DNA of 43,360 nt from a virus. Shown here piece by piece: positions 32,629-43,360 of the stretch (positions are counted from its first letter, which is position 1; each line of letters begins with the position of its first letter). The position numbers and the translations under genes are program-made. Below the pieces are notes generated by a model, which saw nothing but the letters and a program-made list of their open reading frames with translations, did no database searches and was not told the DNA's origin. The stretch lies in IMG/VR virus record IMGVR_UViG_3300013099_000005, positions 1 to 43,360 of that record, one strand, 5' to 3'.

Positions 32629-32685
32629 CAAAAGATAAAGCCCCGGGAACTCCGAGGCTAAACCGCTATGAAAGCGGAACTTAAA

Positions 32686-32733
32686 TGGTGACCCCAGCGG
32701 GAATCGAACCCGCGTTGCCGGCGTGAAAGGCCG
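32686..32733 (-). other. attP: attP core: 3' half of tRNA-Glu(TTC)
   Basis: Read on the minus strand, this stretch has the anticodon arm of tRNA-Glu (loop CTTTCAC with anticodon TTC, at 32725-32731 region), variable loop, a full T-arm (GCGGG, TTCGATT, CCCGC) and the acceptor 3' strand with encoded CCA. The 5' half of a tRNA is absent. Phages that integrate into tRNA genes carry just such a segment, so that the host gene stays whole after insertion. The integrase gene ends 69 bases away. The rest of 32578-32801 holds two arm-like repeats and a small hairpin (CCGCT/AGCGG at about 32671-32685), with no gene seen. Confidence 0.88.
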
Positions 32734-32801: not shown

Positions 32802-34100
32802 TTAGTTTGGCTCAGACTGGCCCTGATCCAGTCCTATCCCAACCTGTTTTGACACACCGTTGACACAGTCGATTTCTGAGAGGGCTCCGGTTGCTGCGAG
32901 GTCCAGGGCCTGGCGTAGCCCAGGGACGTCTCGACCGGCATAGCGGTCCTCGACCATCTTGACGGTGTCTCCCAGGAGATCGGCGACGGCTTTGAAATTT
33001 CCGGTGGCGCTCAGGAGGTGGGTCGCTCGGGTATGCCGGAGGTTGTAGATCTTGAACTTCTCCGGGATCTGTTCGGACGCTGAGAGGGCCTCATTGGCCT
33101 TGGCGATGGTGTCGAGCCACGCCCATCGGATGTTTTTGAACGACTCACCGGTGAGCGGGTTCGGAAAGACCAGGCCATCGGCCCATTTCTGCCTACCTTC
33201 AAGCATTTGACGGAGTCGAGCAGGCATCGGGACCACAACCCGCCGGCGGTTCTTGACCTCTTCCGGCCGCCACACAACGACCCCGGCGCCGAAGTCGACG
33301 TGTCTGTCCCAGTGCATCTGCAAGACGTTGGAGGTTCTAGCCGCAGTGAAGTACAAGGCAACGACCAGGTCGCCGATCGGGACGAGGCGCCGCTGTGCCT
33401 GTTCCCGGCTGGCAACGGCTCCCCACTGCTCCTGCAGCTCGGCGCCGGCCACGAAGATGGCGTGGAGCTGGTCATGGGTGAGCCATTCAACATCGGTCCG
33501 GGCCTCTTCGTAGGGCCGGAGGTGGTGAGCCGGGTTGGCCTTGACCAGGCCGGACCTGACCGCAAGGTTGAAAACCGTTTTCAGTAGGGTGACATAGGCG
33601 TTGACGGATCGTGCTGACAGTTTTCGTCGGGCCCTGAAGTCCGGGCGCCATTCCAGAACCTGGGCCGGAGTGATGCTCTCAGCGGGGGTGTGGCGCCCAA
33701 ACTCCTCGACCAAGACCTTCCACCGCGACTTTTCCTTGTCCCACCTGGTTCCTCGATCGATCGCGTCCTTTTCATAGGCGTCGGCCAGCTCGCCGAAGGT
33801 CTTCGGCCGGAGGACTTCCCCCCTGTCAGCTTTCGCCCTCTCGAGCATTTCGAGTTCGACGACCTGCCGGAGATCGCGGGCTTCGGAGAGGCTGGCGTCC
33901 CAGTCATCCGGGGTCAGGCTGCGGCGGTTGATGTTCCGCCTCGAGTGGATCGTTCGACGTGCCGGCTTGAGCCTGCCGTCGACCTGGTCCTGGTAGACGG
34001 TCGCCCGGAAGCGGAGGTAGTACGCCTGGCGTTCTTCGTTCCAGTTGACGCCGGCGGCGATTCTACCTCTCGGGTTTTTCTTCGGGCTCATCACGTTCAA
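32802..34100 (-). CDS. int: Tyrosine recombinase integrase
   Basis: A 432-residue integrase. The N-terminal third has the arm-binding style (ERQAYYLRFRATVYQDQ), then a core-binding SAM-like domain (FGELADAYEKDAIDRG, LSARSVNAYVTLLKTVFNLA). In the catalytic domain Arg255 is in FTAARTSNVL, a lysine near 283 follows, the HxxR box reads YNLR (Tyr352 replaces the His, Arg355), and the nucleophile is Tyr387 in VEDRYAG. The position usually occupied by the second His is Asp378 (LLGDTV). A second start is at 34091. It lies next to attP and in the repressor-side operon. Confidence 0.93.
   Translation of the reverse strand: MNVMSPKKNPRGRIAAGVNWNEERQAYYLRFRATVYQDQVDGRLKPARRTIHSRRNINRRSLTPDDWDASLSEARDLRQVVELEMLERAKADRGEVLRPKTFGELADAYEKDAIDRGTRWDKEKSRWKVLVEEFGRHTPAESITPAQVLEWRPDFRARRKLSARSVNAYVTLLKTVFNLAVRSGLVKANPAHHLRPYEEARTDVEWLTHDQLHAIFVAGAELQEQWGAVASREQAQRRLVPIGDLVVALYFTAARTSNVLQMHWDRHVDFGAGVVVWRPEEVKNRRRVVVPMPARLRQMLEGRQKWADGLVFPNPLTGESFKNIRWAWLDTIAKANEALSASEQIPEKFKIYNLRHTRATHLLSATGNFKAVADLLGDTVKMVEDRYAGRDVPGLRQALDLAATGALSEIDCVNGVSKQVGIGLDQGQSEPN
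32845..32867. repeat. Arm-type direct repeat, right of the att core
   Basis: TGTTTTGACACA, CC, GTTGACAC: the second copy of the unit seen at 32605. It lies within the last codons of the integrase gene (encoding the CVNGVSKQ region), so its sequence is limited by two functions. Confidence 0.55.
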
Positions 34101-35031: not shown

Positions 35032-35739
35032 TTAAACGCTGTTCTTCGTCTCTCCCTGTTCCCACCGTAGCACTTTACCAATCACGCTCCCGCCATCTTT
35101 CGGATCGATTTCGAACTTTGGGAAGGCCTGGTTGTCTGAAATGCAGATCAGCACTTTGCGTGAGAAGTCTGGAACGACCCGCTTCACCATGACGCCGTTG
35201 TCCCCGTCTCTGATGAGGTAGATCCCGGTGTAGGGCTCGATTTCTTCGGCGTGGATCTGCCTCATGTCAACGGTGAGGACGGCCCCCGGGAGAATTGTGT
35301 TCGCCATCGATTCCCCTAGGTGGTGGGCTCGAGACACCCGGACCCTGGCCGCTCTGCCCTGAATGTTTCCGAGAAGCCAGTCTTCCTGCATCGCGTGGAA
35401 GCCATCCGGTTCTTCCGTCATTTCGGCGCCGGGGCCGGCGCAAACCTCTGATTCAAGGATCGGGACCGATTTGTATTGGCGGGCGAAGCCGTCGGGGTCG
35501 GGGATGGTGAAGGTTGGAAGGTCTGGAATGTCGGAGAGGCCGAGGATGTAGTCGGCAGAAAGACCTAGGGCCTCGCAAATCTCGCGGAGACGATGCCAGC
35601 CCTCTATTCCAAGACCGCTCGCCCACCTTGAGACCGCGGCCCTGGAAACACCTGTTGCATCCGCGAGCATGGCTTTGTCGCCATGTCCTTTAATTGCCTC
35701 AGATAGGCGTTCGGCAATCATCTCCCGACGGCCATTCAT
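35032..35739 (-). CDS. CI/LexA-type phage repressor
   Basis: A 235-residue repressor. The helix-turn-helix is at about residues 20-45 (AMLADATGVSRAAVSRWASG). The C-terminal S24 peptidase domain has the serine in LGESMANTI and the lysine in GVMVKRVVP; a likely cleavage site is Ala-Gly in SEVCAGPG. It should keep the prophage silent and self-cleave when RecA is activated. An in-frame ATG at 35790 would add 17 residues but would leave only 28 bases to the divergent gene and place an operator-like palindrome in the coding sequence, so 35739 is preferred. Confidence 0.85.
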   Translation of the reverse strand: MNGRREMIAERLSEAIKGHGDKAMLADATGVSRAAVSRWASGLGIEGWHRLREICEALGLSADYILGLSDIPDLPTFTIPDPDGFARQYKSVPILESEVCAGPGAEMTEEPDGFHAMQEDWLLGNIQGRAARVRVSRAHHLGESMANTILPGAVLTVDMRQIHAEEIEPYTGIYLIRDGDNGVMVKRVVPDFSRKVLICISDNQAFPKFEIDPKDGGSVIGKVLRWEQGETKNSV

Positions 35740-35818
35740 TAATCCAAGATTAACTTTCTTTGAAATGGGGGTTGCATTTTGATTAATCATGAATTATCTT
35801 GTTAATCAGGAGTTGACT
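35740..35818. promoter_or_regulatory. Divergent operator/promoter region between repressor and Cro-like gene
   Basis: TTAATC, CAA, GATTAA at 35739-35753 is a perfect inverted repeat. A second imperfect palindrome lies at 35781-35798 (GATTAATC, AT, GAATTATC; 14 of 18 positions symmetric), and GTTAATC recurs at about 35801. For the rightward gene TTGCAT (35772-35777) and TATCTT (35795-35800) are 17 bases apart, with the second palindrome covering the -10 box, so repressor binding there would block it. The sites are inferred by eye. Confidence 0.6.
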
Positions 35819-37375: not shown

Positions 37376-37881
37376 GCGGCGTCGGCATGACCAACGGTCA
37401 GAAGCGGATCACGTCGAAGATGATCGAGCGCCAGCGCTTGATCGCAGACACAGAGAATCACCGCCTTGATCTGATGGTCAGGCTTTTTGTACCAGCCGGA
37501 GACATGCTCGCAAGCATGCCGACGAAAATAAACTTGAAACGATCCGAGCAGGGCGAACCGGCCGCCACTCTCGGGTCACTCGAATCCACGTCACCGCGCA
37601 TACCTGACGCCGTCACAGACGGCACACAACCAGCGGTAGGCGTTCGACCTGGGCTGCGGATTTCGCTTGACGACCAGGACTCGGCGCGTGAGCAAATGGC
37701 CGGCGGCTCTCCCTCCAAACACCCCTCCATATTTCTTATAAACGACCATGACAACCTACCACCACAGGACAGACGCGGCTTGCCTGGGGCCGCTCTGTCT
37801 CTTACCAATCGGCTCCTCACCTTTCTTGGTGTTGAGCGGGTACCGCGTGGGCGATGTCCTTGGTGTGGGGAGGCGGGATGA
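37372..37881 (+). CDS. Early hypothetical protein (169 aa)
   Basis: A 169-residue protein. The first 50 residues are helical and basic; the middle is low in structure (Ser/Pro/Asp-rich); the end is CPWCGEAG, half of a zinc site. A second start lies at residue 6 (MTNGQKR). It overlaps both neighbours. No family is recognised. Confidence 0.55.
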   Translation: MSGVGMTNGQKRITSKMIERQRLIADTENHRLDLMVRLFVPAGDMLASMPTKINLKRSEQGEPAATLGSLESTSPRIPDAVTDGTQPAVGVRPGLRISLDDQDSAREQMAGGSPSKHPSIFLINDHDNLPPQDRRGLPGAALSLTNRLLTFLGVERVPRGRCPWCGEAG

Positions 37882-38213
37882 CAACCGTCAATGCCCACGG
37901 CGTGCTTTCGGATGGCGAGTTTGTGATGGTGGTTGATTCGTCTGCTGGGCGGGTTCTGGTGGGGCTGTTTGAGTTTGAGGGCCAGTGGAGGTTCTCGCTG
38001 CGGGTTGTGGTCGGCAGGTATCTAGGGTTTGTCAGCCCGGCGAGTGTGACCCGTCAGGGGTACGAGACACGGGATGCGGCGCTTGACTCGGCCAGGGAGC
38101 TGGCTGTGGATGTTCTCAAGGACAAGGCGGCCCCCCGGGCTCATGAGTGGCGAAAGGCTGCGGCGCTGCTGTCGGAGGTCGAGGCTCCGATGCCGGTCGG
38201 GTTGTTTGGATGA
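37878..38213 (+). CDS. Early hypothetical protein (111 aa), last of the operon
   Basis: A 111-residue protein with a beta-type first half (GEFVMVVDSSAGRVLVGLFE, then WRFSLRVVVGRYLGFV) and a helical end (DSARELAVDVLKDKAA). The ATG at 37878 overlaps the previous stop (ATGA) and is preferred over an in-frame start at 37854. It is the last clear gene before the tmRNA. Confidence 0.58.
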   Translation: MTTVNAHGVLSDGEFVMVVDSSAGRVLVGLFEFEGQWRFSLRVVVGRYLGFVSPASVTRQGYETRDAALDSARELAVDVLKDKAAPRAHEWRKAAALLSEVEAPMPVGLFG

Positions 38214-38414
38214 TGATTTCGAGCGGTACACGTTTCGCGACTGATCACCGCGGCAAGTGCGGATACCACACCGCCACCGCTCAATTTGAATGCAGGGTTC
38301 CACGGTCCCAGCCAGGCGGCGTATCCGTGGGTTTGCCATCGGCGGCTTTGGGTGGAGCTGATGCGCTATCTCACGACCCGACTCGTGGCCCCGGAGTAGA
38401 CGGGGCAACTATTT
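38214..38414 (+). other. Gap between early operon and tmRNA; one weak small frame
   Basis: There is no clear gene. One frame is open from 38219 to TAG 38397-38399 and encodes a plausible-looking peptide (GFHGPSQAAYPWVCHRRLW) but has only a TTG start at 38286 and no ribosome site. No good promoter is seen directly before the tmRNA, so the RNA may be cut out of the early operon transcript by RNase P. Confidence 0.35.
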
Positions 38415-38762
38415 GGGGGTGTACCGGCTTCGACGGGGGACCTACCGAGACTGAGAAGCGTGCCCGCGTTCGTCGGCGGTTTCAGGCGAAAAATCACAGT
38501 TGCAGAACCTCAACTGAAAATGGCGGCTTAGGCCGCCCCGAGACCCGACTGCCTTTGTCACGGGCGCGGGATCTCGGACGTTTCGTGACATGCGGATCTT
38601 GGTCGTCGTTGGTACGCCAGGGCCAAAGGCTTTGTGCCAACTGGCCGGCTTCCAGGGTGCTCGATGCTCGGGATTCCAGCGAGAGAAATCATCGAGATGC
38701 GCACGGAGAAGCTCGTCAAGGTGTTGCCTCGGACAGGGGTTCGACTCCCCTCACCTCCACCA
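38415..38762 (+). ncRNA. ssrA: Transfer-messenger RNA (tmRNA)
   Basis: A 348-base tmRNA. The 5' end GGGGGTG pairs with CACCTCC at 38752-38758, followed by A and encoded CCA; the third pair is G-U, the identity element for alanyl-tRNA synthetase. The D-loop block GGCTTCGACGGGG and the T-arm (AGGGG, TTCGACT, CCCCT) match the family. P2 can form from CGAG and CGTGC (38446-38463) with GCACG and CTCG (38701-38715). A tag frame lies in the middle with its stop in a hairpin loop. tmRNA with SmpB frees stalled ribosomes and tags the broken protein for proteolysis. Confidence 0.93.
38502..38531 (+). other. tmRNA tag reading frame
   Basis: The resume codon is GCA, preceded by CAGTT (E. coli has TAGTC). 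The nine codons read AEPQLKMAA and end at TAG. With the alanine from the charged tmRNA the tag is A-AEPQLKMAA. The TAG lies in the TTAG loop of a perfect 6-bp hairpin (38522-38537), as in other tmRNAs. The final Ala-Ala is the usual signal for ClpXP-type proteases. Confidence 0.85.
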
Positions 38763-38910
38763 ATCCAAGTATCGCCGGTCAGTGCGTGGCCGGTGTTGGC
38801 ATCTGGGGACGCCGCCAGGCGATCTCGGTTCCGCACGTACGCCCTGCGGGCCGGACCAGGCGTGACAGTTGGGAGAGACCAGCACTATCCAATCAAAAAG
38901 GAGAAACCAT

Positions 38911-39078
38911 ATGTCAGTGAAGCGGGATGACCGCCGAGACCTGCGTCGCAAGGAAGCGATTCAGCGCAAGTCTCTCACCAATCAGATGAGTCCAGCGGAG
39001 CGGATTGCGGCTCTTGATTCTCGGCTCGGTACTGGAGTTGGGGCCGCCAGGGAGCGGGCTCGACTGGAGAAGGAGTAG
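38911..39078 (+). CDS. Small charged protein (55 aa), first gene of the DNA-metabolism operon
   Basis: A 55-residue, strongly charged protein (KRDDRRDLRRKEAIQRKSL) with a good AAAGGAG ribosome site at 38898-38904. A weak promoter may lie upstream (GTGACA and TATCCA at about 38862-38892). An in-frame upstream extension lacks a ribosome site. The function is unknown; small phage proteins of this composition often bind nucleic acid. Confidence 0.6.
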   Translation: MSVKRDDRRDLRRKEAIQRKSLTNQMSPAERIAALDSRLGTGVGAARERARLEKE

Positions 39079-39081
39079 ACC

Positions 39082-39249
39082 ATGGACGAACACATCATCA
39101 CAGGCGAAAACATCCAGAGCGTGAAGATCGAGCGAAACTCGCGGGGGTTCACGATCTCCGTCCGCGCCTCGTCCGTAGAGCTGGCCATGGCCATGTATGA
39201 CCACGCCAAGGCCGCAACCGATCGCCGCCTCGAGGCGGAGAAGGAGTAG
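39082..39249 (+). CDS. Small hypothetical protein (55 aa)
   Basis: A 55-residue protein three bases after the previous stop, with GGAG in that gene's end. It has a beta hairpin followed by a helix (SVKIERNSRGFTISVRASS, then AMAMYDHAKAATDRRLEAE). The end of this gene and the previous one share the same ERRL/KE style and the same GAGAAGGAGTAGACCATG spacing, so the start regions look duplicated. The function is unknown. Confidence 0.6.
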   Translation: MDEHIITGENIQSVKIERNSRGFTISVRASSVELAMAMYDHAKAATDRRLEAEKE

Positions 39250-39252
39250 ACC

Positions 39253-40368
39253 ATGTCTGGAAGCAATCTTGCGCGTCATGTTGAGCATTTGCCGGCGGTG
39301 GTGCAGAACAACCCTGTCGCGGCGATGCTCGCCGAGTTCACACCCCAGAAATACAACCTCGTGACCCCGGTATGCGCCATCGACCAATTGCCACCGATGA
39401 CCCGCATCTCGGTGCAGGTAGTGGTTGTCGATCCGGAAGACGACATCTACGCGATCTCAAGTGGAAAATTCGCCCTGACCAAGAACGCCCTCAACCGCAT
39501 CGCAGCGGCGGCGAACGTGAGTTGGATCCCCGAGCGGTCCGGCCAGGTCGATAACTGGAACGATCCTCGCCGCGTCAAGTATCGGGCCGTTGGGACGATC
39601 CAGGATTTCAACGGTCGCGAGAGGGTAATCTCGGGTGAGAAGGAGATTGACCTCCGAGGCGATGCGGACGACCCGGACAGTTGGGGCAAGGAGCTTGCGT
39701 CAATCATCCAGTCAGCCGAAAGGCAAAGCCGTGACCCGATGGGACAGATCAGGCAGGAGCGGCTGCACATCATCTCCTTTGCCGAGACGAAGGCGAAGCT
39801 CCGTGCCCTTCGTGAGGCTCTCGCAATCAAACAGGGGACCACGAAAGAGAAGATCTGCCGCCCCTGGGTGGTGCCGACGCTGGTCGCCGACTACGACACC
39901 TCGGACCCGGAGATCAAACGGATACTGGTTGCCCAGCGGCTTGGCGCGCAGTCCGCCCTCTACGGCGGTGGGGGTGCAGCTCAGCCCGTCGCACCGCAGC
40001 TTGCTCAGGGAGAAATTATCGACGTCGAGCCGGCCGACGAACCCGTCGACGTCACCAACGGCTTCGCCGAGGCTGCTGAGCCTACCGAGGCTCTCGACCC
40101 GTTCGCGGACGTTTCAGGAGCCGACGAGCATCCTTTGCCGATCCCGGATGACGTGATCAGCAGCTGCCCAACCTCTGATGCGGCTCGCTACGAGAAGCTC
40201 AACTGGATCGATGTGATGGCCAAGCGCGCGATCGAGGTTTTCCCAGATCGAGCCGAGGCGGTCTTCCGGAAGCACGCGTCTGGAATCGATTGGTTGGCGG
40301 TTTCGATCGGAGACATCGAGGCCGTCTATCACTCGATCGTGAACGACCTCAAGGGCGGCGCGTCGTGA
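39253..40368 (+). CDS. Putative DNA-binding / recombination protein (371 aa)
   Basis: A 371-residue protein. Its first 230 residues form one domain with VYAISSGKFALTKNALNRI-type sequence (DDIYAISSGKFALTKNALNR), then YRAVGTIQDFNGRERVISGE, EIDLRGD and a helical part ETKAKLRALREALAIKQG. I recall similar unnamed phage proteins near recombination genes, but no Pfam name comes to mind. An acidic linker (Pro/Glu/Asp) joins a second helical domain (ARYEKLNWIDVMAKRAIEVF). It lies before sbcD and sbcC, so an annealing or DNA-end-binding role like RecT/Erf is a fair guess. ATG 39253 has an AAGGAG site. Confidence 0.6.
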   Translation: MSGSNLARHVEHLPAVVQNNPVAAMLAEFTPQKYNLVTPVCAIDQLPPMTRISVQVVVVDPEDDIYAISSGKFALTKNALNRIAAAANVSWIPERSGQVDNWNDPRRVKYRAVGTIQDFNGRERVISGEKEIDLRGDADDPDSWGKELASIIQSAERQSRDPMGQIRQERLHIISFAETKAKLRALREALAIKQGTTKEKICRPWVVPTLVADYDTSDPEIKRILVAQRLGAQSALYGGGGAAQPVAPQLAQGEIIDVEPADEPVDVTNGFAEAAEPTEALDPFADVSGADEHPLPIPDDVISSCPTSDAARYEKLNWIDVMAKRAIEVFPDRAEAVFRKHASGIDWLAVSIGDIEAVYHSIVNDLKGGAS

Positions 40369-42644: not shown

Positions 42645-43360
42645 ATGAGAGTCAACAAGATCACAATGAAGGGGATCACTCGATTCGACGACGAGGTTGT
42701 CCTTGATTTCGACAGTCTCGGCCCGGGGCTCGTTGCCCTAGCTGGCAAGAACGGCGCCGGGAAGACTACTTGTCTCGAAGCAGCGTTTGCCGGACTTCAT
42801 CTGGAGTATCCAACCCGTCCGGGGCCGCTTCACCAAGTCTGCCACGGCAAGGACGCCCGGATTGAACTGGAACTTCATAACGGCGCGCCCCTCCGGGCGG
42901 TTGTCGCCGTTGATGCCGTTCTCAAGACGCCGAAGACTGAGGCTTTCCTCTTCAATGGCGACGGCTCGGAACCCATCACCGACGGCAAGGTCGGCAGCTA
43001 CCGGGATGCCATTGTCGAGCGGTTCGGGTCCCCCCGGCTGATGCTTTCGGCCGCGCTCTCCTGTCAGAACCGCCGCGGCGAGTTCCTCTCTCTGTCGAAG
43101 GCCGATCGGAAAGATTTGTTAGCGGAAATTTTGGACACTGGGGGCCTCCAGGACATTGCCACGGCTGCCCGTGAAAGCGCAAAGGCCCTCGAGGTCGAGA
43201 TCACCGCGGCACAAGCCCGGGTGGACGCGGCCATGGGAGAACTCGACCGCCTGAAGTTCGAGGACACCGACGCCGATGACCTGCGAACCCAGAAGGAGCG
43301 ACTCGAGGTGCGGATTGCCGAGGACCGCGAGGCGCTTGAAGAGTTCCGAGAGAAGCACGG
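42645..43360 (+). CDS. sbcC: SbcC/Rad50-type ATPase, 5' part (continues at 124 on the circle)
   Basis: This is the start of the 747-residue protein that ends at 1651. ATG 42645 follows a GGGAGGAG site. The N-terminus MRVNKITMKGITRFDDEVVL is the usual Rad50 opening, Walker A is GKNGAGKT (34-41), and the Q-loop region reads LSCQNRRGEFLSLSKADRKD. The coiled coil begins near residue 180. The last 123 bases are the same as 1-123. The combined length is shorter than E. coli SbcC (about 1050) and similar to phage versions such as T4 gp46 in being compact. Confidence 0.93.
   Translation, partial: MRVNKITMKGITRFDDEVVLDFDSLGPGLVALAGKNGAGKTTCLEAAFAGLHLEYPTRPGPLHQVCHGKDARIELELHNGAPLRAVVAVDAVLKTPKTEAFLFNGDGSEPITDGKVGSYRDAIVERFGSPRLMLSAALSCQNRRGEFLSLSKADRKDLLAEILDTGGLQDIATAARESAKALEVEITAAQARVDAAMGELDRLKFEDTDADDLRTQKERLEVRIAEDREALEEFREKH
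43238..43360. repeat. Terminal direct repeat, right copy (circular closure)
   Basis: Identical to 1-123; see that entry. The reading frame of sbcC is continuous when the two copies are merged. Confidence 0.95.

Follow-up and report, generated by a model that had tools for sequence, protein, structure and literature searches.

tmRNA releases ribosomes that have stalled and adds a tag to the proteins left unfinished on them. Its gene, ssrA, is present in 402 of 18,146 phage genomes (2.3%) (PMC9004378); an earlier note on the DNA analysed here had described phage-borne tmRNAs as known but rare, of which the first part stands, while the rarity is only relative at such a frequency. Mycobacteriophages and phage G were listed as tmRNA carriers in 2014 (PMC4131195), and mycobacteriophages Bxz1 and Wildcat, Streptomyces BE2 phages and Bacillus phage G have the tmRNA on the phage genome (PMC4131195, PMC13191466), as does the phage described here. 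The cited cluster C and BE2 phages are 130–156 kb in size and carry about 30–44 tRNA genes. A tmRNA without any tRNA genes is found in Bradyrhizobium elkanii phages, which were isolated as virulent and have no annotated lysogeny genes (PMC12656738). Methylophage Melnitz encodes a complete tmRNA for which early expression was proposed, and this molecule is permuted, two-piece and associated with a glutamine riboswitch (PMC9004378). The host ssrA is also cited, in PMC12656738, as needed by some phages, such as lambda-immP22.

In this study, the window, namely, the whole stretch of DNA analysed (IMG/VR record IMGVR_UViG_3300013099_000005, 43,360 nucleotides), was found to carry an exact 123-bp direct terminal repeat (1–123 and 43238–43360), and the genome is therefore complete and circular, with a length of 43,237 bp. 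TerL, a DUF4055 protein in the portal position, a P22-type coat protein, a tail tube, a tape measure, an endolysin, a tyrosine integrase and a CI/LexA-like repressor are encoded, thereby indicating a temperate phage with a long tail. The repressor (HTH and S24) is located at 35032–35790 on the minus strand (Pfam PF00717; phrog_4, E 8.5e-27). With 43 kb, a temperate gene content and no whole tRNA gene called in the window by ARAGORN, this phage differs from the cited cluster C and BE2 phages; it shares the absence of tRNA genes with the B. elkanii phages but has an integrase and a repressor. A twin contig from another sample (IMGVR_UViG_3300013101_000045) is 99.98% identical to the window, has the same arrangement and is identical over the tmRNA gene. 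The sequence makes it quite probable that this temperate phage has its own functional tmRNA, which would work with the SmpB and alanyl-tRNA synthetase of the host in stalled-ribosome recycling and tagging. Its comparatively low covariance score, the mismatches in P2 and the lack of a tmRNA in the structural-gene relatives searched speak to some degree against this reading, whereas the occurrence of tmRNAs within phage gene runs on unrelated contigs speaks for it.

A one-piece tmRNA gene of 348 nt with encoded CCA was called by ARAGORN at 38415–38762 on the plus strand, with the tag AEPQLKMAA*, and was the sole RNA gene reported in the window. Rfam cmscan matched RF00023 at identical coordinates with a score of 114.8 bits (E 2.7e-44; gathering score, 47 bits) over model positions 1–374 and without truncation, and the E-value excludes a chance match. 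The full-model score is accompanied by the tRNA-like domain, the tag frame, P2 and the pseudoknots. The extra matches in a looser Rfam scan of the window were all weak, and a second RF00023 match at 32697–32714 (18.9 bits) was discarded as the T arm of a tRNA-Glu half only. No riboswitch was found in the window with Rfam, and the gene is one-piece, in both of which it differs from the Melnitz tmRNA. The nested folding energy of the whole molecule was close to that of shuffles (z -0.66), a value of little weight because the RNA is pseudoknotted and the folding model is nested.

Both halves of the tRNA-like domain are intact. The 5' half (38415–38434, plus strand) comprises the P1 5' strand GGGGGUG (38415–38421) and then the D-loop region (..GGCUUCGAC), as delimited by P1 pairing and invariant alignment columns, and the 3' half (38735–38762, plus strand) comprises the T arm AGGGG-UUCGACU-CCCCU, the P1 3' strand CACCUCC and ACCA, according to Rfam and helix pairing. 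P1 is paired at 7/7 positions and its third pair is G-U, with G3; the T arm is paired at 5/5 positions, and ACCA is encoded in the gene. A G-U third acceptor pair is an alanine identity element. P2 is a long interrupted helix with several internal mismatches and a duplex energy of -24.2 kcal/mol. Pseudoknot 1 (38464–38490) contains P3 CCGC/GCGG (RNA positions 50–53/62–65) and P4 UUCGUC/GGCGAA (55–60/71–76), in which all pairs are standard and the connecting loops, read from the sequence, are 1, 1 and 5 nt. Helix pairing also defines pseudoknot 2 (38538–38590), with P6 CCGAGA/UCUCGG (124–129/158–163) and P7 UGUCACG/CGUGACA (142–148/170–176), and pseudoknot 3 (38597–38641), with P8 UCUUGGU/GCCAGGG (183–189/202–208) and P9 GUUGGUACG/UGUGCCAAC (194–202/219–227). 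Pseudoknot 4 (38643–38700, outer limits approximate) has P10 as in the Rfam alignment and P11 CUCGAUG/CAUCGAG (246–252/276–282) with seven Watson-Crick pairs. All four pseudoknots are on the plus strand, and their second helices can form with 6 (P4), 7 (P7), 9 (P9) and 7 (P11) pairs. The earlier note had proposed a complete phage-borne tmRNA gene with both tRNA-like halves, the G-U third pair, P2 and a tag frame; each of these parts was confirmed, and the Rfam model and ARAGORN agreed on the full-length gene.

An 11-nt spacer, AAAUCACAGUU (38491–38501, plus strand), precedes the resume codon, and the spacer in E. coli tmRNA is also 11 nt long (AAAAAAUAGUC). The A at -4 (38498) is the counterpart of E. 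coli A86, which is required, since its mutation abolishes or cripples tmRNA, and the C at -5 replaces E. coli U85, a change that is harmless in E. coli (PMC2481249). A perfect 6-bp hairpin, CAGUUG/CAACUG (38497–38516), has both the frame-setting A and the first resume-codon base within it, and completion of a helix around the resume codon has been put forward to explain the inactivity of the E. coli A86C mutant (PMC2481249). The hairpin was dropped as a candidate defect, as inspection showed an equivalent UAGUUG/CAACUA to be possible in the high-scoring tmRNAs L038 and L040.

The tag frame, GCA GAA CCT CAA CTG AAA ATG GCG GCT TAG (38502–38531, plus strand; ARAGORN, gene positions 88–117), encodes (A)AEPQLKMAA, and a 6-bp P5 hairpin (38522–38537) carries its TAG stop in the tetraloop. 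The tag ends in Ala-Ala preceded by Met, and its Lys at -4 is unusual. Terminal Ala-Ala is the main ClpX determinant of the tag, and in E. coli a substitution at the preceding residue causes only a modest rise in KM (PMC7652416); Met at this place should therefore still permit degradation. In its full-length match, tRNA-like domain, P2, four pseudoknots, 11-nt spacer, resume Ala codon and Ala-Ala end, the window gene resembles the bacterial one-piece tmRNA (RF00023), and it differs from it in being phage-borne, in its short Lys-bearing tag and in the lack of SmpB on the same genome.

The RNA could also act against the host, either by sequestering SmpB or by replacing the host tag, so that host trans-translation would be blocked or re-aimed. 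Mycobacteriophage DS6A has an RNA with the tRNA-like domain only, and tmRNA is inhibited by a comparable molecule, possibly through titration of SmpB (PMC4131195); the window tag, moreover, is unlike the usual ..ALAA and contains Lys. However, the mRNA-like half with its resume codon, tag and stop, needless for a decoy, is intact and the Ala-Ala end is retained, which makes this action quite unlikely. An inhibitor of the DS6A type was ruled out by the full 348-nt gene with its tag.

The gene occupies part of a non-coding stretch of some 700 nt in the early region, between an early-type gene run that ends at 38213 and the next genes, which start from 38911 and lead to HNH, SbcD-like, SbcC-like and helicase genes. 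This placement agrees with that of the earlier note, with early genes on one side and helicase and SbcC/SbcD-like genes on the other. The last gene of the early run (37854–38213, plus strand) has coding-type codon statistics in frame and no PHROG, Pfam or PADLOC match, and the first sizeable gene 3' of the tmRNA is phrog_13782 (39253–40368, plus strand; PHROG E 2.6e-24). Two successive 55-aa open frames with similar E-K-E ends are present just 3' of the tmRNA (38911–39078 and 39082–39249). The flanks and the frame across the tmRNA are non-coding by codon statistics; a 236-aa open frame that spans the tmRNA (38210–38920) and overlaps the preceding gene at its stop codon was rejected on these statistics, which gave no coding signal in any of the six frames. 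A search for a promoter of the tmRNA itself recognised none, so co-transcription and processing would be expected. The 5' and 3' flanks (inverted repeats I1 and I3) were rejected as a processing stem, as 62/300 random phage places and 71/300 shuffles pair as well. The tmRNA gene is interior to the circular genome, and capsid, terminase, tape measure, integrase and repressor genes are on the same molecule; the gene is thus phage-borne.

The tyrosine integrase is encoded at 32802–34100 on the minus strand (Pfam PF00589, E 2.8e-10; PHROG phrog_1, E 3.3e-39). It adjoins the 3' half of a tRNA-Glu (UUC) ending in CCA (about 32685–32731, minus strand), which is probably the attP core, as judged from the sequence. 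The earlier note had placed the integrase with tRNA-Glu, which is correct for the adjoining tRNA-Glu sequence but not for a whole gene, because only the 3' half is present and ARAGORN calls no whole tRNA. The twin contig begins at window position 32685, the last base (CCA end) of the tRNA-Glu half, which would be expected if this were the crossover site or if the assembly broke at that site. Such a start would fit the presence of both integrated and free phage in the sample. A 44-mer of the tRNA-Glu 3' half had no exact match in 84,980 species genomes. The tmRNA gene is whole and lies 4.3 kb from the integrase and at a greater distance from the tRNA-Glu half; since that half adjoins the integrase instead, the tmRNA is not the attachment site, in agreement with the earlier note. 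An attachment-site copy of host ssrA, for which a 3' ssrA fragment beside the integrase would be expected, was likewise rejected.

A scan of viral sequences for a matching 3' end yielded 118 stretches, and ARAGORN identified both one-piece and permuted tmRNAs at these loci. On some other viral contigs with this 3'-end pattern, the tmRNA is near the contig edge, for example in L121, where inspection revealed a SmpB-like gene adjoining ssrA and the last 34 nt equal those of the window gene, with differences elsewhere. Some viral-contig tmRNAs, such as that of L121, are probably host flanks. The window gene could by analogy be what is left of an attachment site, or host DNA at a provirus contig end, but it is complete, 4.3 kb from the integrase and inside a circular genome with a 123-bp terminal repeat, and the twin contig is arranged likewise, so that such an origin is extremely improbable.

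Capsid relatives of the phage were found at 33 viral loci, one of which is the twin, and the other 32 have 43–70% identity in the segments aligned. For 17 of the non-twin contigs, most of them fragments and two of 44–47 kb, the whole record was searched and no tmRNA was found. The parts compared show that the capsid relatives share the head/tail module and not the early region; the tmRNA therefore appears, as far as can be seen from these sequences, to be cargo of this phage lineage. Among viral contigs, the genes beside the tmRNA and the integrase are shared with the twin alone, and a capsid search of the 84,980 species genomes gave no prophage relative. Close tmRNAs in named phages were limited to matches of 63–75 bp in the 3' tRNA-like domain in four fecal phage records.

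Several tmRNAs of the viral set are located inside phage gene runs, beside exonuclease and TerL genes (L048, L100), between TerL and portal genes (L084) or beside a helicase gene (L090). One-piece tmRNAs with short tags ending in LKAA or ARAA were found on IMG/VR contigs L048 (8458–8810), L100 (3573–3925), L086 (1666–2016), L084 (5969–6283) and L090 (3497–3845); they have about 64–72% pairwise identity to the window tmRNA and, in the stretches compared, no neighbouring genes in common with it. Long unusual tags (GNVYNNMEVSGLLATSKVAA, GEEKSS..) are encoded by the tmRNAs of L109 (4549–4954) and of L066, L087 and L110 (tag GEEKSSFTWEDAMAFIGADYAVAA), which are viral contigs of 58–140 kb.

Outside the tRNA-like domain, the window tmRNA diverges from every tmRNA compared. 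Its score is below that of the other one-piece viral tmRNAs scored (117–204 bits, several at 183–204), and a rough tree gives it a long branch and a weak grouping with L084, L090 and L152 (support 0.54–0.89). The long branch and the lower covariance score argue for long residence outside a sampled cellular lineage rather than recent capture, although the donor lineage may simply be unsampled. The gene might alternatively be a functionless passenger, a host ssrA that an ancestor gained, for example when a prophage integrated at ssrA was excised imprecisely. Phage integration at ssrA is known (PMC3203893, PMC9004378), and the solitary long branch and low score would fit such a history. Nevertheless, all functional elements and the pseudoknot helices have survived strong sequence divergence, an outcome that neutral decay would not produce. 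In addition, the genome is small and dense, and the present integrase adjoins the tRNA-Glu half; a functionless passenger is thus unlikely.

A basic residue is present in the last four tag positions of the window (KMAA), of L048, L086, L100 and L084 (LKAA) and of L090 (ARAA), in a small, uncontrolled sample in which L048, L086 and L100 are one related group. Tags of the same set without such a residue include ANDDNYALAA, ANDESYALAA, ADNELALAA and DNTSVALAA. The window and L100 have the tag-coding run CAACTGAAA..GCGGCTTA in common. It is conceivable, though doubtful, that the re-coded short Lys-bearing tag (..LKMAA) rescues ribosomes yet alters recognition by ClpX or other host proteases.

Both roles suggested in the earlier note, ribosome rescue and redirected proteolysis, are plausible in view of the intact anatomy. 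For a functional phage tmRNA, we infer the following course. The RNA would probably be transcribed together with the early genes, as early expression was proposed for Melnitz, and then trimmed by host RNases. It would be charged with alanine by the host alanyl-tRNA synthetase via the G3-U70 type pair and bound by SmpB, which would come from the host because no SmpB gene was found on the phage genome. It would enter ribosomes stalled on broken or stopless mRNA and switch them to its own frame, and (A)AEPQLKMAA would be appended before the stop codon. Ribosomes would thereby be recycled in infection and truncated proteins directed to ClpXP-type proteolysis via the terminal Ala-Ala, which may benefit the phage.

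A compact temperate phage without tRNA genes thus joins the known carriers of their own ribosome-rescue RNA. As the tmRNA is the only recognised RNA gene in 43 kb, the benefit of a viral tmRNA to its virus could be studied more cleanly in such a phage than in the large phages with tRNA arrays. Phage-borne tmRNA is already known, also without tRNA genes, and the short basic tag is the less ordinary lead. The basic residue that recurs close to the end of these short tags, similar in unrelated phage tmRNAs, can be tested; if the tag is indeed re-coded, phages would convergently uncouple ribosome rescue from the host degradation route by means of ..LKMAA, ..LKAA and ..ARAA tags.
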